Positions 11,764 through 63,962 of a stretch of DNA of 64,000 nt are shown here, piece by piece. Source of the DNA: Maledivibacter sp. (GTDB taxonomy: Bacteria; Bacillota; Clostridia; Peptostreptococcales; Caminicellaceae). The number at the start of each line of letters is the position of its first letter. Position 1 is the first letter of the stretch. The notes under the pieces are model-generated. The model saw only the letters and a program-made list of their open reading frames with translations, was not told where the DNA came from and did not search any database. The translations under genes were made by a program, and so were the position numbers. The stretch is from positions 1 to 64,000 of the forward strand of contig JAOASB010000019.1 of the NCBI GenBank assembly GCA_025210375.1, written 5' to 3'.

Positions 11764-13002
11764 CTACATCAATCCTAAAACCTTTAAAATACCTCTAAGT
11801 CCTAGTCCAATAGCAACAAGTACAACAATTCCACCTAATACATTAGTTATCCCAGTATTTACATATTTACCAAGCCTTTTCTTGTTGTTCATTACATATA
11901 ATAGGAATATTGCAACTATTGGTAGTAACACTCCATTTGCTGCTTGTGCGAATATAATCGCTGAAATTGGTTTTAATCCTATTGCAGAAAAAACGATGCC
12001 TATAATCAGAACCAGCATCCAAACAGCTCTAAATTTACTGTCCTTGAAATCTTTTTTCCAACCCAATGCTCCCGATGTAGCATAGGCCGCTGCAAGTGGT
12101 GCAGTTATAGAGGATGATAACCCCGCTGAAAATAGTCCAAAGGCGAAGAAATACTTAGCCCATTGTCCTAATAAAGGTTCAAGCTGCTTTGCCATATCCC
12201 CTGCACTCTTTATTCCAACCCCTTTTCCGAAAAATGCGGCTGAAGCTGTAATAATAATCGCTACTGTTATTAGTCCACCAAGAATTATAGAAAGAAAAAT
12301 ATCTGACCTTGATTCCCCAAGTCCTGAGGCATCCTTCCATCTTTCCTGTACTGCTGATGAATGAAGAAATAAATTATAAGGTACCACTGTAGTTCCTATA
12401 AGTGCCATAACAATAAATACCGATCCCTTTGGTACAGAAGGAATAAACATACCGGATAGAATCTGACCCCAGTCTGGTCCAACTACAATTGCTGTAGTAA
12501 TAAATACTAAGCTCATAAGTACAACTAATCCAACAAGCACTTTTTCAATTAATTTATAACTACCTGTAAATAATAGAATAAATGCTCCAATACCCATAAT
12601 TGGTCCCCATACATTCATGGATACTCCTGTAATTGCTTCTAAGCCCAATGCTCCTCCCAAGATATTTCCTGTTTCATAGGCTGCACAACCAATACCAATA
12701 GCCGAAATAACTAGAAAAATGCTTACATATTTTATCATGGGATTTTCAAACTGCTCCCTTAGAGCCTCTCCAAGTCCCATCCTAGTAACTATGCCTAATC
12801 TAGCTGACATTTCCTGTAGTATGATTGTAGCAAATACCGAGAATACCATAGCCCATAGTAATGCATAACCATAACTAGCTCCTGCTAATGAAGCAGTCGT
12901 AACTGTTCCAGGGCCTATAAATGCTGCCGTTACAATTGCTGCTGGTCCCATAGTCTTTAATCTTTCCATGAAGCTTTTCTTTTTTCCCGATGCACCTTCC
13001 AT
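11764..13002 (-). CDS. Nramp-family transporter (YcsG type)
   Basis: 412 residues with about 11 hydrophobic segments. The family motif is GPAAIVTAAFIGPGTVTTASLAGASYGYAL (about 14-43), where metal-type Nramps have the DPGN motif. Here the Asp-Pro-Gly-Asn is replaced by GPGT, arguing against classical manganese or iron transport. As with YcsG in Bacillus, its place at the head of a pxp operon suggests uptake of 5-oxoproline or a related organic substrate; that is inference. The ribosome site is AGGAGG, and the promoter is of the sigma-54 type. Confidence 0.85.
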   Translation of the reverse strand: MEGASGKKKSFMERLKTMGPAAIVTAAFIGPGTVTTASLAGASYGYALLWAMVFSVFATIILQEMSARLGIVTRMGLGEALREQFENPMIKYVSIFLVISAIGIGCAAYETGNILGGALGLEAITGVSMNVWGPIMGIGAFILLFTGSYKLIEKVLVGLVVLMSLVFITTAIVVGPDWGQILSGMFIPSVPKGSVFIVMALIGTTVVPYNLFLHSSAVQERWKDASGLGESRSDIFLSIILGGLITVAIIITASAAFFGKGVGIKSAGDMAKQLEPLLGQWAKYFFAFGLFSAGLSSSITAPLAAAYATSGALGWKKDFKDSKFRAVWMLVLIIGIVFSAIGLKPISAIIFAQAANGVLLPIVAIFLLYVMNNKKRLGKYVNTGITNVLGGIVVLVAIGLGLRGILKVLGLM

Positions 13003-53333: not shown

Positions 53334-54386
53334 TCAAAGTATATATTCTATGTATTCTCTCAATGATTTTCTTATATGCCCATCCCTTCCTTCAGTGGTA
53401 TCAGCACATATAAGGGCATTTAATATAGCTTCTTCAGTAGCTTCTTTAACCCCTCTAAAAACATCATTAATCTTGTTCTCATTAAGTGCCTTAATATCTA
53501 TTACAGCCTCTTCTTCATAATGCTTTATCCTATTAGCCGTAGTGAAGCCTATTACAACATCTCCACTGCCATTTCCCCAAAAGGACCCCGTTCTACTCAG
53601 TCCAACCCCAGCTCTTTTGCAGATTCTTTTTAACTGCCTATGGGTCATAGGTATATCCGTTGCCAGTACCATTATTATTGACCCCTTATCTTCTTCTATT
53701 ATATTACTCTTCTCTTTTTGGGCTATTATTTTTCCTGCCTCTACTCCATTTATTATTAAATCCTCCTTAGCTCCAAAATTGGACAGCACCAATATTCCTA
53801 CAGTAAATACATCGTTACCTATTTTAACAAGCCTTGATGCTGTTCCAATTCCTCCCTTTAATCCAAAACAAGACATCCCCGTACCAGCACCTACTGCACC
53901 CTCACAAAATTCCTCATCTGCATTTTTTAGTGCCTCAAACACATGCTCTCCCTTAACATGCATCCCTCTTATATCATTTAAATACCCATCATTGCATTCA
54001 CAGACTATGGGATTGATAGTACCAGTTGAAATACCTATATCCCCATTATCCTTTAACATATGCTGTACTAAGGCTGAATGGGCAGTTCCAACACTAAGGG
54101 TATTTGTTAATATCAATGGAGTCTCTATATTCCCTAACTCTTCAAGCTGTATAGTTCCAGCTGTTTTTCCAAATCCATTTATCACATGGCCAGCAGCCAC
54201 AACCTTTTCTTTAAATAAATTTCCTCCGTGGGGTAGTATTGACGTTACTCCAGTCTTTATTGGTCCATCATTCAAGGTTACATGCCCAACCTTTACTCCT
54301 CCAACATCTGTAATGGCATTTCTTTGTCCTGTCTCCATTTCACCTATTATGATTCCATAGTCTCTTATCCGCTTTTGTTCCTTCAT
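53334..54386 (-). CDS. P1-family (DmpA-like) N-terminal-nucleophile peptidase
   Basis: 350 residues. The P1 family activates itself by cleavage before a Ser or Thr. Visible features are NAITDVGGVKVGHVTL (about 19-34), GAGTGMSCFGLKGGIGTAS (about 166-184), and the stretch GSIIMVLATDIPMTHRQLKRICKRAGVGLSRTGS before the presumed nucleophile region. Works as a D-aminopeptidase or beta-peptidyl aminopeptidase in known members. Single-gene unit. Confidence 0.88.
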   Translation of the reverse strand: MKEQKRIRDYGIIIGEMETGQRNAITDVGGVKVGHVTLNDGPIKTGVTSILPHGGNLFKEKVVAAGHVINGFGKTAGTIQLEELGNIETPLILTNTLSVGTAHSALVQHMLKDNGDIGISTGTINPIVCECNDGYLNDIRGMHVKGEHVFEALKNADEEFCEGAVGAGTGMSCFGLKGGIGTASRLVKIGNDVFTVGILVLSNFGAKEDLIINGVEAGKIIAQKEKSNIIEEDKGSIIMVLATDIPMTHRQLKRICKRAGVGLSRTGSFWGNGSGDVVIGFTTANRIKHYEEEAVIDIKALNENKINDVFRGVKEATEEAILNALICADTTEGRDGHIRKSLREYIEYIL

Positions 54387-54634: not shown

Positions 54635-54663
54635 TTGACATTTCGAGACTACAGTTGTAGTAT
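54635..54663 (+). promoter_or_regulatory. Promoter of the BlaI operon
   Basis: TTGACA (54635-54640) and TAGTAT (54658-54663) with exactly 17 bases between them. The spacer and -10 box are covered by the left BlaI-type operator. Confidence 0.88.
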
Positions 54664-54689
54664 GTAAATGTACTACAACTGTAGTCTCG
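54644..54689. promoter_or_regulatory. Twin BlaI-type operators in a perfect inverted repeat
   Basis: CGAGACTACAGTTGTAGTA and its exact reverse complement TACTACAACTGTAGTCTCG, 8 bases apart. Each arm holds its own small dyad ACTACAgtTGTAGT, the form of BlaI/MecI boxes (TACA..TGTA). One operator overlaps the -10 box and the other lies over the start of transcription. The rest of 54387-54634 holds a partial hairpin repeat at 54552-54580 and no gene. Confidence 0.9.
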
Positions 54690-54728
54690 ATTTTTTTTAT
54701 TATTTTTTATGGCAAAGGAGGAAATAAA

Positions 54729-55118
54729 ATGGGCGAAAATATACCTAGAATATCGGATTCTGAATGGCAGGTTATGAAGGTGTTATGGAAGAAATCCCCC
54801 CTTACTGCCGCTGAGATTATTGACAAGCTACAGCCAGAAACTAAATGGAATAGAAAAACTATCCATACCCTAATTAGTAGACTTGTAAAAAAACAAGTTC
54901 TGGGAATACAAAAACAAAATCCTTATATTTATTATCCACTGATTGAAGAGAAGCTTTGTATGAAGGAAGAAACTAAATCCTTCCTAGAAAAGGTTTATGA
55001 TGGCTCTCTACAATTACTGATGGCCAATTTTTTAAGGAATGAAAAGCTGTCAAAACAGGAGATACAAAGCTTGAAAAAGTTATTAGATGAAAGTGAGTAT
55101 GGGGGCGATGGGGAATGA
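54729..55118 (+). CDS. BlaI/MecI/CopY-family repressor
   Basis: 129 residues: winged helix (about 1-72: RISDSEWQVMKVLWKKSPLTAAEII and WNRKTIHTLISRLVKKQVL) and a dimerising C-terminal helical part. In BlaI the chain is cut by the partner protease to lift repression. AAAGGAGG precedes the ATG, and its stop overlaps the start of the M56 gene (ATGA). The operators at 54644-54689 show self-control of the whole operon. Confidence 0.93.
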   Translation: MGENIPRISDSEWQVMKVLWKKSPLTAAEIIDKLQPETKWNRKTIHTLISRLVKKQVLGIQKQNPYIYYPLIEEKLCMKEETKSFLEKVYDGSLQLLMANFLRNEKLSKQEIQSLKKLLDESEYGGDGE

Positions 55119-58100
55119 CCTTATCTGCTATATTTCATATTATACTGACCATGTCATTTGTGGGAAGCATCACTGCCCTAGTAATCCTTCTTTTTAAGAA
55201 GATATTTAAGAATAAAATTAGTCCTTCGTGGCATTATTTAGTATGGTTAATCTTACTGGTGCGTTTGATTATTCCCTATGCCCCGGAAAGCTCTATTAGT
55301 ATTTTTAATTTTTTGACCCATTATGATCAAAGCACTAAGGAAATTCAATATCCTATTATACATAATACAGATTACGACCATACCTCTCCTAAGGATATTA
55401 ATATTGGGAAGGGCCCCCTTATTCAAGAGCTTGATAAAATGAGGGATATAGAGGATGAAGCCTTGAGGACAAATACCTATGATGGCTCTTACCCATCACA
55501 AAGGTATCTTAATGCAAGAAAAATTAATATTTTAAGTATGACAAGGTCTTTGAATAATTATTTACCCTTTGATTATAGGGCCCCTTCAAGGACAAGTAGC
55601 AAAGATTATTTTTACATACTAAGTCTGATATGGGTTACTGGAGTGCTTATTAGTAGTTTTTATATATTATGGTTACAGATATCCTATAGCCTAAAAATTA
55701 AAAACTCCCATAACTATACTAACCAAAGTATTATTTCTAATTATTATAGCTGTAAATCTCAAATGAAAATACAGAAAGAAATTCCGTTAATAATAAGCTC
55801 TAAAGTTAAGGCCCCGGCATTAATGGGGGTATTCAAACCTAAAATACTGATTTCACCTAATTATATTGATCTATTAAAAAATGAAGATTTAAAATTTGTT
55901 TTCATGCATGAATTGGCACATTATAAGCGAAAGGATATTTTAGTTCGATGGATACTAGTTTTCCTTCAGATACTTCACTGGTTTAACCCTGTATTGTGGT
56001 TTGCCTTCTACCAGATACGGCAAGACTGTGAAACAGCATGTGACGCCCATGTATTATCTTCCATAGATAGACATGAGTATAAAAAATATGGAAATACAAT
56101 GATTAAAATGCTAGATATTTTTTCTGGATATGATTATATTCCAGGTTCAACAGGCATGTTAAATCGTAAGAAATTCATATTTGAAAGGGTGAGAAGCATT
56201 ATGAATTTTAAAAAAAATTATATTAAATGGACTTTATTTGGAATTGCTATTTTTGTAGCTCTAGCAGCATTTCTATTGACCAATGGAAAAAAACCCCCAG
56301 AGGAAGTTATAAAAATAACCTATGATGCACAGGAAATTGGTAAAAACTCTGAAGTTAAGCTTATTAATGGAATTAAACCATTATCTAATGGACAAATGCT
56401 TGTTTATGATATGAAAAGTAAAAAATTTACAATTATAAACAAGGATGGCAGCATGGAAAAAACTATTACTTGCCAAGATTCACCTAAGGACAAAACTGCT
56501 TTATTTACTGTTGATTCCCAAGACAAGTTATACGTCCTATCTACTGATCCAACTTTAGCAATCAATGTTTATGATCTAATGGGCAAAAGATTAGATAAAA
56601 TAGAATTAAAGGATGCAGACATATCTAAAGCCGAACAAATATTTAATTGGGATTTAGAGGTTGACTCTAATGGTAATATCTATGTATTAATTCCTCAAAG
56701 TAACATTCAGATATTTGATTCTAAGGGCTCTAAAATAAAAACCCTAAACCAAAATGGCTGTTCCTTCATAGAACTCGATGAAGAAGATAACTTATATATA
56801 GGGGGCTACAACAAGAAAGATTATATAGTAAAGCTAAACCCCCTAGAGGATATAGTATTATGGGAAATAAAAGACGACAATAGATTGATTTCTCTAAAAA
56901 ATGCTGAATACTCTATACAATCAAAAACCTTATATGTAGGAAATAGAATTAATATTGTAAGTATTGACTCCGAGGGAAAGTCTATAGATAAAGTATTCCA
57001 AATAGATTCTTTAATAAATGAGCATAAGTCCTTTGGCTTTACAGGCTTAACCCTTGATTCAGATGGAAATATTTATTTCTATGGATTTGATAGAAGTAGT
57101 AATAAAAGCTTATTATATAAAACCAATACCAATAAGCATAGTATAAGCAGTGATGATATGAAATCCCTTACCATATCTGTAAGATACATTACGCCAACCC
57201 TAGAATATGCAATAAATAAATTTGAAAATATCCATCCAGATATATTGATAAATGTGGAAAACTATAATGCTTTTTCATGGATAATGAGTGATATGACCTA
57301 CGAGGATAGCTTGAAATCCAATAAAGAAGCTTTCCAAAAACAATATGATTTTATTCAAAAGATCAATACCCAAATGCTGACAGGGAAGGGCCCAGATATT
57401 ATTCATATAAATAATATGCCCTATAGAGAATATGCCGATAAAAATCTTCTTTTAGACCTTAATACACTTATGGAAGAGGATAATTCCTTTGATACAAACC
57501 TATATTATGCAAACATCCTAGATGCCATGGAATATAAGGATAAATTATATACAATACCTTTGACAGTAGATTATAATGCTTTTTGCAGTAATGTTGGTTT
57601 CTTAAAAACGCATTCCATTGATTTTGATGCTAACAATCTATCCTGGAATGATTTCATAACCCTTGCACAAGAAACTACAAGGGATGTTGACGGAGATGGG
57701 AAAATTGACATGTATGGAATGCCGACTATAGCACCGGAAAAAATGTTTGGCTACATGATAAATTCAACCACAAGGGACTTTATCGATTACGAAAACAAAG
57801 CGGCGTATTTTAAGTCCCAGGAATTTATGGATTTACTTAAAACATGCAAAACTATATGCAGTGGAGCCTTTGTTAATCCCAACGTCACAGAATTTTCTAC
57901 ACGTGATGGTGGATTTGCTTTTCTGCCCTATACAATTGATGATTTTGTTATTTTATTTGGTAATGGATTTATGAACGCGGAGGAAATCAGCTTCTATAAA
58001 TATCCCAATTCTGATAAGGACCAATATACATTTAGTACATCGGATATGTATGGAATAAATAGTAATACGAAATGCAAAGAAGAAGCATGGGAGTTTATTA

Positions 58101-58459
58101 AATTTCTTCTTTCAGAAGAAGTCCAAAGCTATGAAAAGCTTTTTGGAATCCCAATATGCAAAAAAGCAAGGGAAAATAAAGTTCAATCCTATTTATCGGA
58201 AGTTGAAAAGAGTCTAAATGAATTTGGTGATGTTTATGGATATAAGGTCTCATCACGGGAAGAATTTAGAAAACAACTAAATGATAATATTGAAAAACTA
58301 GACAAGATTATCCCTAAACTAAATAATTGCAATACCTATAATATTCAAATACAAAAAATTCTGAATGAGGAAACAGAGGGCTTTTTTAATGGAAATAAAT
58401 CCGTCGAAGAAACGGCACAGATCATACAACGAAAGATTGAAATGTATTTAAATGAATAA
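55115..58459 (+). CDS. BlaR1-like M56 protease fused to a beta-propeller and a sugar-binding protein
   Basis: 1114 residues. The BlaR1/MecR1-type membrane part (about 1-390) holds zinc protease motif HELAH at 265-269 with third ligand E306 (DCETACD), and a last membrane helix near 372-390. Then outside the cell come NHL/SMP-like propeller blades (about 395-665: DSQDKLYVLS, DSNGNIYVLI, DEEDNLYIGG, DSDGNIYFYG) and an ABC family 1 solute-binding domain (about 683-1114). The penicillin-binding sensor of BlaR1 is thus replaced by a sugar-binding protein, and two sugar permease genes follow. Ligand binding probably drives BlaI cleavage; that is inference. Confidence 0.88.
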   Translation: MTLSAIFHIILTMSFVGSITALVILLFKKIFKNKISPSWHYLVWLILLVRLIIPYAPESSISIFNFLTHYDQSTKEIQYPIIHNTDYDHTSPKDINIGKGPLIQELDKMRDIEDEALRTNTYDGSYPSQRYLNARKINILSMTRSLNNYLPFDYRAPSRTSSKDYFYILSLIWVTGVLISSFYILWLQISYSLKIKNSHNYTNQSIISNYYSCKSQMKIQKEIPLIISSKVKAPALMGVFKPKILISPNYIDLLKNEDLKFVFMHELAHYKRKDILVRWILVFLQILHWFNPVLWFAFYQIRQDCETACDAHVLSSIDRHEYKKYGNTMIKMLDIFSGYDYIPGSTGMLNRKKFIFERVRSIMNFKKNYIKWTLFGIAIFVALAAFLLTNGKKPPEEVIKITYDAQEIGKNSEVKLINGIKPLSNGQMLVYDMKSKKFTIINKDGSMEKTITCQDSPKDKTALFTVDSQDKLYVLSTDPTLAINVYDLMGKRLDKIELKDADISKAEQIFNWDLEVDSNGNIYVLIPQSNIQIFDSKGSKIKTLNQNGCSFIELDEEDNLYIGGYNKKDYIVKLNPLEDIVLWEIKDDNRLISLKNAEYSIQSKTLYVGNRINIVSIDSEGKSIDKVFQIDSLINEHKSFGFTGLTLDSDGNIYFYGFDRSSNKSLLYKTNTNKHSISSDDMKSLTISVRYITPTLEYAINKFENIHPDILINVENYNAFSWIMSDMTYEDSLKSNKEAFQKQYDFIQKINTQMLTGKGPDIIHINNMPYREYADKNLLLDLNTLMEEDNSFDTNLYYANILDAMEYKDKLYTIPLTVDYNAFCSNVGFLKTHSIDFDANNLSWNDFITLAQETTRDVDGDGKIDMYGMPTIAPEKMFGYMINSTTRDFIDYENKAAYFKSQEFMDLLKTCKTICSGAFVNPNVTEFSTRDGGFAFLPYTIDDFVILFGNGFMNAEEISFYKYPNSDKDQYTFSTSDMYGINSNTKCKEEAWEFIKFLLSEEVQSYEKLFGIPICKKARENKVQSYLSEVEKSLNEFGDVYGYKVSSREEFRKQLNDNIEKLDKIIPKLNNCNTYNIQIQKILNEETEGFFNGNKSVEETAQIIQRKIEMYLNE

Positions 58460-58477
58460 TAAAGGAGTCACTAACCA

Positions 58478-59341
58478 ATGAAATTCAAATCAAACAGAAG
58501 GTTAATAATATTTATCCTTCTGTTTCCAAGCTTGGCAGGGTTTTCTCTATTTTATATAATCCCATTTTTGAGTTGTGGATGGTACTCTTTGCTAGATCAT
58601 TGCGTAAACGGGAGCTTTGTAGGTTTAAAGAACTACAGGGATTTATTATCAAATAATTTATTTCTAATGGCCGCGGTCAACACCGTATATTTTGCTTTAT
58701 TTGCTGTGCCAATTACAATGCTTTTAGGATTACTTCTTGCAACTTTGTTAAATAAAAAAATAAATAGCAGGAGTATTTTTAGATCAGCATTTATAGCCCC
58801 AATGGTTATTCCAACAGCATCCGTAGTACTGATATGGAATATTCTCTTCCATAGTGATGGAGCATTAAATGGAACCCTTGCTTCTTTAGGCTTTTCTCCT
58901 ATAGATTGGTTAAATTCAAGTAAAGCAAGATTAGTTATGGTTCTTCTGTATGCGTGGAAAAATATAGGTTATTGTATGGTTGTATTCTTAGGAGGCCTTT
59001 TAAAAATTCCTAAGGAATATTATGAAGCGGCAGATATGGAAGGGGCAGGTAGCTTTAAGAAGTTTATATATATTACCATCCCCTATCTTACTCCTGTTAT
59101 ATTCTTTGTTTTGGTTTTATCCATTATAAATTCATTTAAGATATTCAAGGAAGTTTATCTCCTAGCTGGACCCTATCCCCATGAAAGTATTTATACAATG
59201 CAGCATTATATGAACAATGTTTTCACATCCCTTGATTATCAAAAGTTAAGTGCTGCCGCATATATCATGGCCATTGTATTAGGGATTTTAATATATATAT
59301 TATTCAAATATGAAAATAAATATAGTAGCTTTTTAAAATAA
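58478..59341 (+). CDS. Sugar ABC transporter permease, MalF/UgpA type
   Basis: 287 residues with six membrane helices. The ATPase-docking EAA loop reads YYEAADMEGAGSFKKFIYITIPYLTP (about 186-211). Pairs with the next permease; the binding protein is fused to the M56 gene before it. No ATPase gene is in the operon, so a shared MsmK/UgpC-type ATPase elsewhere is expected. Confidence 0.92.
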   Translation: MKFKSNRRLIIFILLFPSLAGFSLFYIIPFLSCGWYSLLDHCVNGSFVGLKNYRDLLSNNLFLMAAVNTVYFALFAVPITMLLGLLLATLLNKKINSRSIFRSAFIAPMVIPTASVVLIWNILFHSDGALNGTLASLGFSPIDWLNSSKARLVMVLLYAWKNIGYCMVVFLGGLLKIPKEYYEAADMEGAGSFKKFIYITIPYLTPVIFFVLVLSIINSFKIFKEVYLLAGPYPHESIYTMQHYMNNVFTSLDYQKLSAAAYIMAIVLGILIYILFKYENKYSSFLK

Positions 59342-59360
59342 TACAAAGGGAAGTGCTGTT

Positions 59361-60254
59361 ATGCTCCTACAGCTAAATAAGTTAATACATAAAAAACCCA
59401 TTAAAAATTTCATGATTTATTTTTTGTTGATCCTTATGTCACTATCTTTTATATACCCGATACTTGCAATTTTTGTGAATTCGTTTATGGAACCCCAAGA
59501 GATATGCGATAGCTATTCTTTTATTACTGGCAACCATAATAACCAAAATAGTCATGAATATATGAAAATAAAATTGATTCCCGATATGTTAAGTTTTAAG
59601 CAATATATAAATATACTTTTTCGCCAATCATTTTTCCTAAGAATGTTTTGGAACTCCACAGGAATTGTTGCGGCAATTATAATCGGTCAAGTACTTGTTT
59701 CATCCATTGCAGCCTATGTGTTTTGTAAAATATCATTTAAAGGTAGAGATAAATTGTTTTTTCTTTATGTGATCACAATGATGATGCCCTTTCAGGTTAC
59801 ACTTGTTCCAAATTATTTAGTTGTGGATAAGTTAGGGATTACAAATACATATGCAGCATTGATTTTGCCAGCAATATTTGCTCCCTTTGGAGTATTCCTA
59901 ATGAAACAATTCATGAACTACATCCCAAAGGAATGTATTGAGGCCGCCAGCGTAGATGGAGCAGGACATTTTGGAATTTTTATTCATATAATACTACCCA
60001 TGCTGAAGCCTGCAATCGCATCCCTTAGTATCCTTCTATTTATTGATTACTGGAACATGGTGGAACAACCTATATTATTCATAGATGATGCCATGAAAAG
60101 GCCTTTATCTACTTACTTATCAATTATCGGAAAGAAAGATCTTCATTGTGCCTTCGCCGCATCAACTATATACATGCTCCCTCCCCTATTGATGTTTTTA
60201 TACTGGGAATGTTATCTTGTTGAAGGAATACAGCTTAATTCTGGCATAAAGTAG
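59361..60254 (+). CDS. Sugar ABC transporter permease, MalG/UgpE type
   Basis: 297 residues, six membrane helices. EAA loop CIEAASVDGAGHFGIFIHIILPMLKP (about 193-218). Partner of the preceding permease. The loop after TM1 (about 46-80) is longer than usual and hydrophilic (SFITGNHNNQNSHEYMKIK). Confidence 0.92.
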   Translation: MLLQLNKLIHKKPIKNFMIYFLLILMSLSFIYPILAIFVNSFMEPQEICDSYSFITGNHNNQNSHEYMKIKLIPDMLSFKQYINILFRQSFFLRMFWNSTGIVAAIIIGQVLVSSIAAYVFCKISFKGRDKLFFLYVITMMMPFQVTLVPNYLVVDKLGITNTYAALILPAIFAPFGVFLMKQFMNYIPKECIEAASVDGAGHFGIFIHIILPMLKPAIASLSILLFIDYWNMVEQPILFIDDAMKRPLSTYLSIIGKKDLHCAFAASTIYMLPPLLMFLYWECYLVEGIQLNSGIK

Positions 60255-60340
60255 ATACTAATTCTAAGCCTTAAATTATTACCCTATATCTTAAAGAGTG
60301 AATATATACATTATAGTAAGCCTATATTTGGAGGTACCCC

Positions 60341-61618
60341 ATGGAATATTATGAAAAAAATAATGATGTAAGAAGACAAAAAATAATTAGAAAGGTTATT
60401 ATCATTTTTTTTAGCTCAATGCTTATTATTACTTTTTTTTCAAAGACTGTACAGAATCTTTCCCTTCCAAATGTGATTGTATCCCAACCACATTCGGGAA
60501 TTCTAACCTATGAAATGAGTGGATTTGGAACTATAGTTCCAGAAGAAGCCTTAAAAATATATACTAGCACTACAAAAAAAATAAAAAAACTTGAGGTTGA
60601 GATTGGGGATAATATTAAAAAGGGGCAAACTATTGCAATCCTTCATAATGAAGCTTTACAACAAGGTTTAGGGGAGGAAGAAATCAGATTAGAAGCTTTA
60701 AAAACAAAATTAAAAAAATTATTATTGGATACTACAAATTCTGAAGTAAATACCCTTCAATTTGAGGTAAAAAAAGCCATGAAGGACTTTGAAAATTCAC
60801 AAAGGATTTTCGATCAAAAGAAACAGCTTCATGGGTTAGGTGTCGAGAACTCAGAAAACCTAAAGGAAGCCCAATATAGTCTAGAAAAATCAAGGCTTGA
60901 GTATGAACAAAAAAAGCTACAGCTTGAGTCGGCTAAAGAAAAAGAACAAGCCTATCTATTAAAACATGCAAAGGACATTGAAGCCCTAAAATATGATATA
61001 CAGATTCAACAATTGAAGGTGGATAAACAAAATAAAGAGGAGATGCTTATATCTCCATGCAATGGTATTATTAAGGAATTGTATTACCAAAATGGGGAAT
61101 TAGCCCTGAATAATCAACCCATATGCTTAATCGTAAATCCTGACAAAGGCTTCATTTTTTCCGCACATATTGAACATACCGATGGAAACTACATTGAGGT
61201 CGGAGATCCAGTATCTATCCTTTTAAAATCAAGGAACAAGGCTATTGATGCATCAATTAAAAAAATCGTTAATAAAAGTAATAACAAAGAGCTTATATGT
61301 GAAATAGATGAAAAGGATTTTCTAGGTGAAGAAAAACTTAAATATCGAATAATTAAGAAATCTAAGTCCTTTAATACCCTTATACCTAATACTGCATTAG
61401 GTAAAGACAATAGTGGTAATTTCGTATTTTTAGTGGAAGAAAGAGAAGGGGCATTGGGAAAGGAATACTATGTAAAAAAGGAATATGTAACCATTGATGA
61501 TAGTGATAATCTAAATACTTCAATTATTAATGGAGTAGATAGCTCAACCAGTATTATATACGACTACGATAAGCCTATTCACGAAGGCAGTAGAGTTAGA
61601 CCTATTCAAAGGAAGTGA
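60341..61618 (+). CDS. HlyD/RND-type membrane-fusion (adaptor) protein
   Basis: 425 residues. One N-terminal membrane helix (about 20-40) is followed by a barrel-sandwich (lipoyl-like) half (KKLEVEIGDNIKKGQTIAIL), a long coiled-coil hairpin (about 105-230), the second lipoyl half (LISPCNGIIKELYYQNGELALNNQPIC) and a beta-barrel part (about 265-420). It overlaps the next gene by 4 bases, so the two act together. GGAGG precedes the ATG. Confidence 0.85.
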   Translation: MEYYEKNNDVRRQKIIRKVIIIFFSSMLIITFFSKTVQNLSLPNVIVSQPHSGILTYEMSGFGTIVPEEALKIYTSTTKKIKKLEVEIGDNIKKGQTIAILHNEALQQGLGEEEIRLEALKTKLKKLLLDTTNSEVNTLQFEVKKAMKDFENSQRIFDQKKQLHGLGVENSENLKEAQYSLEKSRLEYEQKKLQLESAKEKEQAYLLKHAKDIEALKYDIQIQQLKVDKQNKEEMLISPCNGIIKELYYQNGELALNNQPICLIVNPDKGFIFSAHIEHTDGNYIEVGDPVSILLKSRNKAIDASIKKIVNKSNNKELICEIDEKDFLGEEKLKYRIIKKSKSFNTLIPNTALGKDNSGNFVFLVEEREGALGKEYYVKKEYVTIDDSDNLNTSIINGVDSSTSIIYDYDKPIHEGSRVRPIQRK

Positions 61619-62994
61619 ACAACATGAAAAACATAAAAATTTGGAACCTTCTTCAATTCCTTGGGGTATCCATTGTTCTTCTTTGCAGCTTTTTTATAGA
61701 AGGTATAAATCAAGATACGGTTGAGCTTTTAGGTTCAATAGGATCAAATAGGTTAATTATAGAAACCAAGGATAATTATATAAATAATAAAAATATTGGA
61801 TTTACAGAAAATGAAGTTGCCCAGTTTACAGATAAAGTAAAATATAATGAAACTTTATTTACACTTCCCTTTACAACAGATATTAAAGCTAATTCAAATA
61901 CCATATATACTAAAGCATTAGCCGTTAATTCCTGCTATAAACGTTTTGCAGATATCCATATTGTAAAAGGAAGCTTTTTAACAGAAAAGCAAGAGTCAAA
62001 CAAAGAAAAGGTTTTAGTAATAGGAGAAGAAACAGCATTGAAATTATTTAAGAGTACGGATATCATAGGTATGAATATAAGTATTATGAATGAAGATTTT
62101 AAAATTGTGGGTATTAACAAAGAAAGAGATTCTTTTCTTTCTAAACTATTCAAGGGAAAAGAACCCCAAATTTATATTCCTTTAAAAACAATTTTCACTA
62201 TAAATGAAGATATTACAATACCATGCTTACAAATATCAATTTCAAATGAATATAACTCAATTCAAAATGAAAAAGCTGTTGTAAAACTACTGGACAAGAT
62301 GGGAAAGTCACAATCAAATTATAAAATTATTGATTGCAGGGTTTTTGAAAAACAGAACCTTCAAATGATTAAGTTGATCATATTTGTATTCGGCATATTA
62401 ATTATTCTTCATATTCTTAAGACCCAAGTGAAAATATTAAGAACAATATTCTCAACAATCAAAGAAAAATATAATTCACAATATTTTCTTAAATCAATAA
62501 AGTTATACGAAAAAATCTTTCTTTGTTTAATCCTAAGACTCCTATTTTTAATAACTTCTATATACGTAATCATTCAAGCTATTAAATTCCACTTCTATAT
62601 TGTCCATAAAAGTAGTAATAATATTATTAACTACTATTTAAGTCCCATCATAGATAATATACTTAATATTGGTGCTTCAAAATTATTTTCTACTAATATT
62701 ATCAATTTTTCAATATTTACTATTAATTGCATATTTGTTTTTGGAATTCTATTAGGGAGCCTATTAATATTCACAAGCTTTTACTTCTTAAAACATGGTG
62801 ATTTTTCTTCTTATAAACCACTTTTGTTTTTCAGCATATCATATATTTTATCACTAATATCCGCAAGCATGATCATAAATATATTCAAGCTCCCTATAAT
62901 TATAAATACAAAGCTAGTAATTATAATTTTTATATTTATTTTTTTAAAAAATATTTCTATTATCAATAGATCAAAGCATACAACAATATATTAA
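61615..62994 (+). CDS. MacB/FtsX-like ABC permease without ATPase
   Basis: 459 residues. TM1 (about 10-28), a MacB-type extracellular domain (about 30-245: VNSCYKRFADIHIVKGSFLTE and VIGEETALKLFKSTDIIGMNI), then about five more helices (about 253-450). The helix count and the long loop between TM2 and TM4 differ from the usual four-helix FtsX. No MacB ATPase is coded here. With the HlyD protein it may form an exporter or a mechanotransmission unit. Confidence 0.7.
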   Translation: MNNMKNIKIWNLLQFLGVSIVLLCSFFIEGINQDTVELLGSIGSNRLIIETKDNYINNKNIGFTENEVAQFTDKVKYNETLFTLPFTTDIKANSNTIYTKALAVNSCYKRFADIHIVKGSFLTEKQESNKEKVLVIGEETALKLFKSTDIIGMNISIMNEDFKIVGINKERDSFLSKLFKGKEPQIYIPLKTIFTINEDITIPCLQISISNEYNSIQNEKAVVKLLDKMGKSQSNYKIIDCRVFEKQNLQMIKLIIFVFGILIILHILKTQVKILRTIFSTIKEKYNSQYFLKSIKLYEKIFLCLILRLLFLITSIYVIIQAIKFHFYIVHKSSNNIINYYLSPIIDNILNIGASKLFSTNIINFSIFTINCIFVFGILLGSLLIFTSFYFLKHGDFSSYKPLLFFSISYILSLISASMIINIFKLPIIINTKLVIIIFIFIFLKNISIINRSKHTTIY

Positions 62995-63023: not shown

Positions 63024-63962
63024 CTAAATAACCTCTTTAATGATCCTTAATGCATTTTTATAACATATTTTTTCTATTTCACTTTCAGTTAAACCGCTTT
63101 TTTTCAAAGCATCTATAAGCTTTAGGACATCACAAAAATCTTCTATCTCTGTACTTGGCGTCATGCCATCGAAATCTGACCCTAGTGCCATAACATCTAT
63201 ACCACCAATATTGATTATGTGTTTTACATGACGAACCATATCATCTATACTGCAACTAGATACTTCGCTTAAAAAATATTTTGCATAGTTTAGTCCTGTT
63301 ACTCCACCCTTATTTGCCAATATTTTTATCATATCATCAGTTAAGTTTCTTGAGTGATTAGTCACGGATCGAGCATTAGAATGTGATGCTATAAAGGGTT
63401 TAGAAGAAAGCTTTGCCACGTCATAAAATCCTTTATCCGATAAATGGGATACATCGATAAGCATACCTAGTTTATTCATCTCATATACTACTTCTTCCCC
63501 AAAAGCAGTTAATCCCTTTTCCATATATTGTTTTTCGCAGTTTGGATAGCCTATTTCATTGGGATAATTCCATGTCAATGTAATTAATCTCACCCCTAAT
63601 CTATATAGGTTCCTAAGATTATGTAGTTTTCCCTTTAATACACCCCCCTCTTCAATGGTTAAAAATGCAGAAATCCTTCCTTTATTATAGTTTTCCATCA
63701 ATTGATTATAATTTGTTGCAATTTCCATTTCCCCTTTATTTTTTTCAAGTTCAATATAAAATTTATCGGCCATTTCTAAACAAATCTCTAAGGGGTCTCC
63801 TTCCCTAGCTAAATCAACATACAAAGCGAAGAACTGGGACATCGAATTACCCTTTTTTAGCTTTTCAATATCTATATGAAACTTATTCTTTTTCAGCTCA
63901 AGTTTATCCTTGTCCTCCATTAATTTTAGAATGGTGTCACAGTGAAAATCTATTACCTTCAT
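63024..63962 (-). CDS. Membrane-dipeptidase family (M19) zinc peptidase
   Basis: 312 residues, TIM-barrel amidohydrolase. Zinc ligands: the N-terminal DFHCDT (about 4-9), Glu in FLTIEEGG, and the His in DVSHLSDKGF and ASHSNARSVTNHSRN; GSDFDGMTPS closes the site. Cleaves dipeptides, often with D-residues at the C-terminus. GGGGGTATAGA precedes the ATG. Convergent with the BlaI operon. Confidence 0.92.
   Translation of the reverse strand: MKVIDFHCDTILKLMEDKDKLELKKNKFHIDIEKLKKGNSMSQFFALYVDLAREGDPLEICLEMADKFYIELEKNKGEMEIATNYNQLMENYNKGRISAFLTIEEGGVLKGKLHNLRNLYRLGVRLITLTWNYPNEIGYPNCEKQYMEKGLTAFGEEVVYEMNKLGMLIDVSHLSDKGFYDVAKLSSKPFIASHSNARSVTNHSRNLTDDMIKILANKGGVTGLNYAKYFLSEVSSCSIDDMVRHVKHIINIGGIDVMALGSDFDGMTPSTEIEDFCDVLKLIDALKKSGLTESEIEKICYKNALRIIKEVI

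Follow-up and report, generated by a model that had tools for sequence, protein, structure and literature searches.

Gene organization of the locus

The window, by which we mean the entire 64,000-nucleotide stretch of Maledivibacter DNA analyzed here, contains at positions 54729-62994 a co-directional and uninterrupted set of genes encoding, in order, a BlaI repressor, a 1114-codon fusion protein, two permeases, a HlyD-like protein and a MacB-like protein. The gaps between them are -4, 18, 19, 86 and -4 nt, and from this spacing we infer that the set from blaI to the MacB-like gene is likely to constitute a single operon; the gene upstream of it is divergently oriented and the one downstream is convergent. 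The features are as follows:

54635-54663, plus strand: promoter, with TTGACA (54635-54640), a 17-nt spacer and TAGTAT (54658-54663), from a consensus scan
54649-54660, no strand assigned: putative BlaI-type operator 1, CTACAGTTGTAG, overlapping the -10 hexamer
54673-54684, no strand assigned: putative BlaI-type operator 2, CTACAACTGTAG, 24 nt downstream of operator 1
54729-55118, plus strand: blaI repressor gene, 129 aa; PF03965 (Penicillinase_R), E=2.8e-34
55026-55031, plus strand: codons for BlaI N100-F101, equivalent to N101-F102 of S. aureus BlaI, from alignments
55115-58459, plus strand: gene for the M56-propeller-SBP fusion receptor, 1114 aa, from the open reading frame, Pfam, AlphaFold2 and orthologues
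55115-56290, plus strand: residues 1-392 of the fusion, transmembrane (TM) helices and cytoplasmic M56 zinc protease; Peptidase_M56, with HELAH 265-269, E306, D310 and the last TM helix at 369-392
56291-57184, plus strand: residues 393-690, extracellular six-bladed NHL-like beta-propeller as predicted by AlphaFold2 and Foldseek
57185-58456, plus strand: residues 691-1114, family-1 solute-binding protein (SBP); SBP_bac_1, nearest solved structure CbpC (7x0o)
58478-59341, plus strand: permease 1 (UgpA/MalF-like); BPD_transp_1, EAA loop present
59361-60254, plus strand: permease 2 (UgpE/MalG-like); BPD_transp_1, EAA loop present
60341-61618, plus strand: HlyD/RND-type adaptor with a single N-terminal TM helix; HlyD_3
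61615-62994, plus strand: MacB-like protein, MacB periplasmic core and C-terminal TM helices; MacB_PCD

The blaI stop codon overlaps the start of the fusion gene in the tetranucleotide ATGA, as an earlier, sequence-only reading of this DNA had noted, and the profile match bears out its naming of blaI. In profile searches the MacB-like protein matched MacB_PCD only, with neither an ATPase domain nor an FtsX match. There is no ATPase gene in the operon and no SBP gene besides the fused one, nor is there a second CbpC-like SBP in the window's genome. The operon is flanked by genes for an S58 (DmpA-like) protein (53334-54386) and an M19 dipeptidase (63024-63962); the S58 gene lies upstream in Maledivibacter halophilus too, which may point to a peptide ligand or may be mere synteny.

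A BlaR1-type protease fused to a propeller and a solute-binding domain

In Pfam searches the fusion protein combines, within a single open frame, matches to Peptidase_M56 (E=1.2e-66, best stretch 158-361) and SBP_bac_1 (E=1.7e-17, residues 745-1004). The protease part contains the zinc-protease motif HExxH...ExxxD, E306 sitting within ETACD; HELAH and ExxxD are invariant in all six aligned fusions, and this part matches the cryo-EM structures of BlaR1 (8exp/8exs). The propeller is faint in Pfam (SBBP, E=0.013). AlphaFold2 models of the whole chain and of the propeller alone (pLDDT 83 for the latter) place about 25 strands in this region, and the top Foldseek matches of the propeller model are six-bladed NHL propellers (TRIM2 and Thin, E about 1e-11); on these models, the region is predicted to adopt a six-bladed NHL-type fold. 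The three parts named in the sequence-only reading, namely an M56 protease, propeller blades and a family 1 SBP in one chain, were thus all recovered by domain searches and structure prediction.

The whole-chain model, built on a 32-row alignment, has a mean pLDDT of 83.6, with values below 50 only at residues 68-72, 82-163 (loop EL1) and 340-349. The last of these overlaps the stretch aligning with the BlaR1 autocleavage site Ser283-Phe284 (near residues 348-349 here). A Foldseek search with the whole chain ranks CbpC first (7x0o, E=2e-17). The order of the sensor is BlaR1-like, the last TM helix (369-392) being followed by the propeller and the SBP on the outside. Pfam detects no penicillin-binding sensor domain in the fusion, and its blaR1_generic score is 222.7 against a cut-off of 400. 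By motif and predicted topology the protein is a BlaR1-type M56 receptor, yet not a beta-lactam receptor proper. Identity among the fusions is 61% in the SBP part, 65% in the protease core and 37% in loop EL1; the SBP is conserved almost as well as the protease core, as expected if it is functional.

The repressor and its putative operators

The window BlaI (Penicillinase_R) aligns over almost its full length with solved MecI and BlaI, and the alignment includes the N-F bond, which is kept in all five aligned BlaI proteins from fusion loci. S. aureus BlaR1 directly cleaves BlaI between N101 and F102 (PMC9834060). The window protein is accordingly classed, by sequence comparison, as a BlaI/MecI-type repressor with a predicted cleavable N-F bond.

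Both predicted operators lie inside a 46-nt inverted repeat (54644-54689), and exact matches to CTACANNTGTAG occur at seven places in the whole genome, two of them at the operon promoter. The earlier proposal of twin BlaI-type operators on this promoter was strengthened by comparison: at 7/7 fusion loci TTGACA is followed by a first TACANNTGTA, the two starts lying exactly 15 nt apart, and the second TACANNTGTA lies 24 nt beyond the first (23 nt in G877). We also considered the inverted repeat as a terminator or attenuator. It folds well (z = -9.9) and T8 follows it, but the other loci have not retained the T-run; with the -10 hexamer situated within the 5' arm of the repeat, only part of the hairpin would be transcribed, and the upstream gene is on the other strand. 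This interpretation was rejected. Elsewhere in the window's genome, another M56 gene (G000:C5:97608-99076, L002) encodes a C-terminal M23 peptidase domain and has the same operator motif shortly upstream.

Distribution and common descent of the fusion

Full-length fusions, with open frames of about 1111-1115 residues, were found at seven loci in six genomes belonging to one order and three families, and the downstream gene order is alike at the orthologous loci. The carriers besides the window's genome are M. halophilus (two tandem copies, 59-60% identity), G046 (50%), G440, G437 and G877. Within the order, six of the 297 genomes sampled carry the fusion; samples of 391 genomes for the class and 398 for the phylum yielded none except the window's own, with about two candidates scored per genome in these large samples, so that the scan may have overlooked fusions beyond the order. 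The domain order recurs with blaI at the six further loci, one M. halophilus copy, which is without blaI, excepted. The concern voiced in the sequence-only reading, that the chain might lack a real M56 or SBP domain or be a join of separate genes near residue 390 or 680, is answered by the profile matches and by uninterrupted homologues at six further loci. With seven full-length open frames in six genomes, an assembly or prediction artefact is refuted; no support for one was found, and its probability is negligible.

In M. halophilus two fusion copies stand ahead of one cassette, and one has no permeases directly behind it, which implies that receptor and transporter need not pair one to one. 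The upstream copy is without blaI, the twin operators and the last blaI codons being kept (L008:7616-8001), and an intact copy adjoins. These leftover codons and both operators indicate a loss of blaI from this copy, and a single BlaI probably acts at both fusion promoters. The two paralogous receptors are 55% identical in the propeller, 63% in the SBP and 75% in the M56 part; the greater divergence of the propeller and SBP would be consistent with two ligand ranges acting through a single repressor.

In quick trees of the SBP, permease 1, HlyD, MacB-like and M56 proteins, which have some long branches outside the fused clade, the fused rows form a single clade with full support, suggesting that the parts of the fusion operon travelled together. 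Of the cassette genes compared, permease 1 shows the highest conservation (83% between the window and M. halophilus).

The cassette without the fused protease

The cassette order of SBP, permease, permease, HlyD and MacB-like genes also occurs across Bacillota without the protease. Such unfused cassettes were found in G006, G003 (M. halophilus, two), G440, G444, G434, G137, G165, G781 (two), G594, G644 and G391 (the CbpC genome), and their SBP is a free lipoprotein with the propeller present or absent. The HlyD and MacB-like genes are constant at nearly every complete unfused locus, which marks them as part of the transporter unit and not as added response genes. Hence, of the earlier suggestion that they form an export arm of the response, the presence of the genes stands, whereas the role does not fit constant cassette parts and a MacB-like protein without its own ATPase domain. 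The cassette appears to be undescribed and without known function. In the CbpC genome, two separate open frames of 300 and 152 aa take the place of a single HlyD-like gene (L124:3134-4487).

The signaling genes adjoining these cassettes differ. Histidine kinase and response regulator genes are found in G003 (L027), G444, G781 and G083. Separate blaI and M56 genes adjoin a cassette with a lipoprotein propeller-SBP in G440 (L085) and G434 (L087); in the tree their M56 proteins branch well away from the fused clade, and their BlaI proteins are 34% identical to that of the window. This distance argues for a second, independent recruitment, and it appears from these comparisons that protease-repressor signaling joined the cassette at least twice. 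At L085 operators of the type GACTATTNNNNTAGT precede the cassette, blaI and a DUF2680-like lipoprotein gene, with 10 matches against 0.44 expected, a count that 0/200 shuffles reached. At L087 the GACTATTNNNNTAGT pattern precedes blaI and permease 1, with a two-mismatch count of 14 against 7.8 expected, which is less clear of chance. These operators ahead of both blaI and cassette genes are the best evidence for a putative control of such a cassette by BlaI/M56. At L085:12066-12139 and 12307-12987, a third operator pair of the G440 type stands before the DUF2680-like lipoprotein gene, which probably belongs to that BlaI regulon as well.

Transport capacity and the nature of the ligand

The EAA loops are intact in both window permeases; among the features of a CUT1-type importer, the window thus contains the SBP and EAA loops, with the ATPase available in trans only. 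A UgpC-type ATPase is encoded at C49:6762-7859 in the window's genome and is 60% identical to the ATPase of the G046 cassette. A gene of this type lies inside or adjoins several unfused cassettes and the G046 fusion locus, and is present in every fusion genome tested.

The SBP has the fold of a family that binds sugars, and the permeases are similar to UgpA/UgpE. The SBP domain matches CbpC of C. thermocellum with 24% identity (E=4e-27), CbpC being also its best structural match and the only characterised member of this cassette type that we found. CbpC had earlier been reported to bind cellodextrins and glucose; in 2022, ITC and NMR revealed binding of none of the tested sugars, the pocket was seen to be blocked by a loop, and growth on glucose, cellobiose and Avicel was normal in a mutant of the transporter (PMC9601137). 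As this best comparison bound no tested sugar, a sugar ligand is disfavoured, though not rejected. The two proteins first described as sugar permeases therefore remain permeases (BPD_transp_1 in both), but the sugar is in doubt. The ligand may well not be a sugar; cell-wall fragments, modified peptides and oligosaccharides are all candidates.

Relatives of the SBP in G083, G111 and G116 adjoin CcpM-type peptide maturation genes. At L092, L125, L126 and L128, CbpC-like or propeller-SBP proteins, one of them an 874-residue double SBP, are encoded beside CcpM radical SAM and TIGR04066/TIGR04069 genes of peptide maturation. A link between the window and CcpM peptide maturation was dropped, as no CcpM gene was found in the five fusion genomes tested or in the CbpC genome.

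A proposed self-regulated transport unit and its alternatives

Taking gene order, domains, motifs, operators and conservation together, we propose that the operon as a whole encodes a transport unit that regulates itself through a BlaR1-type receptor, and give this explanation a probability of roughly 55%. Without ligand, BlaI dimers on both operators would keep transcription low, and the few receptor copies made would display the propeller and SBP outside the membrane. The SBP would take ligand, or dock in its ligand-bound form on its own permeases, and the last TM helix could relay the movement to the M56 domain; the latter would cut BlaI at N100-F101 and derepress the operon. The receptor's SBP would double as the binding protein of the transporter, whose permeases would be powered by a UgpC/MsmX-type ATPase from another locus of the genome, with the HlyD and MacB-like proteins as fixed members of the unit. 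Both ligand-driven switching of the protease and feeding of the permeases by a fused SBP are plausible. More tentatively, at a little under even odds, one polypeptide might combine two functions, binding substrate for an ABC importer and, as a protease, destroying the repressor of that importer, within a hybrid import/adaptor cassette whose ligand is perhaps a peptide or cell-wall fragment. If so, substrate capture outside the cell would turn on its own transport in one step.

The fused SBP could instead be a sensor only, which detects a noxious or signaling compound such as an antimicrobial peptide or cell-wall fragment and has ceased to deliver substrate, with the cassette serving mainly in envelope protection or HlyD/MacB-like export. 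The blocked pocket of CbpC and its failure to bind tested sugars are in line with this, as are the constancy of the HlyD and MacB-like proteins, the SBP relatives adjoining CcpM-type genes and the two-component systems beside other cassettes; yet the import-type EAA loops are intact, permease 1 is the most conserved cassette gene among those compared, the operon has no separate SBP and CcpM is absent from the fusion genomes tested, and on balance we think it rather unlikely. Another option is that the protease answers to an SBP engaged with working permeases, and not to ligand alone, so that the receptor reads flux, a type of sensing exemplified by BceS-BceAB type systems. The shared operon and congruent trees of the SBP and permeases, together with the separate sensors adjoining other cassettes, are compatible with such coupling; it is harder to reconcile with the extra M. 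halophilus fusion copy without permeases directly behind it, though this may share those of copy B, and we regard it as distinctly improbable. Least persuasive of these is the idea that the M56 part is a mere membrane anchor and BlaI responds to a cytoplasmic small molecule, much as a cytoplasmic peptidoglycan dipeptide is reported to free B. licheniformis BlaI from DNA (PMC3305447): the zinc ligands are conserved without exception, as is the scissile bond of BlaI, and other cassettes use a lipoprotein SBP that needs no such anchor, leaving very little room for it.

Comparison with known systems

M56/BlaI signaling is known in depth for beta-lactams only. Ordinary binding screens are able to identify the ligands of an SBP, so that signaling from an outer ligand to an M56 domain becomes testable without covalent antibiotic chemistry. 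Furthermore, different bacteria couple the cassette with two-component systems, with blaI and M56 as separate genes or with the fused protein, and this variety offers natural experiments on the exchange of signaling partners.

The window system shares with BlaR1/BlaI and MecR1/MecI of S. aureus and B. licheniformis the M56 gluzincin motif, a sensor placed after the last TM helix, a paired BlaI with the N-F bond and TACAnnTGTA-type operators on its own promoter, the latter recognized here from sequence. It differs from them in its ectodomain, which consists of a propeller and an SBP and has no penicillin-binding domain by Pfam, in its loop EL1 of about 100 residues versus about 40 in BlaR1/MecR1, and in the genes predicted to be regulated, a transporter cassette versus the beta-lactamase of BlaR1/BlaI systems. 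With transporter C of C. thermocellum (CbpC, operon Cthe_2125-2128) it has in common the SBP domain and the same SBP-permease-permease-HlyD-MacB-like cassette; CbpC, however, is a free lipoprotein without propeller or protease, and its locus has no blaI. As in MacA-MacB exporters, a HlyD-like adaptor adjoins a MacB periplasmic core, but the MacB-like protein of the window has no ATPase domain or FtsX match, and these genes are embedded in an import-type operon. An exchangeable outer domain is also seen in other M56 proteins with non-penicillin ectodomains (M23, LRR, DUF4825, DUF5050 and DUF6034). None of the 19 other M56 proteins scanned has an SBP domain, and an M56-SBP fusion was not found described in the literature searched, which mostly excluded subscription papers. 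The fusion is a real and conserved protein, and a new type of sensor on a known receptor chassis.
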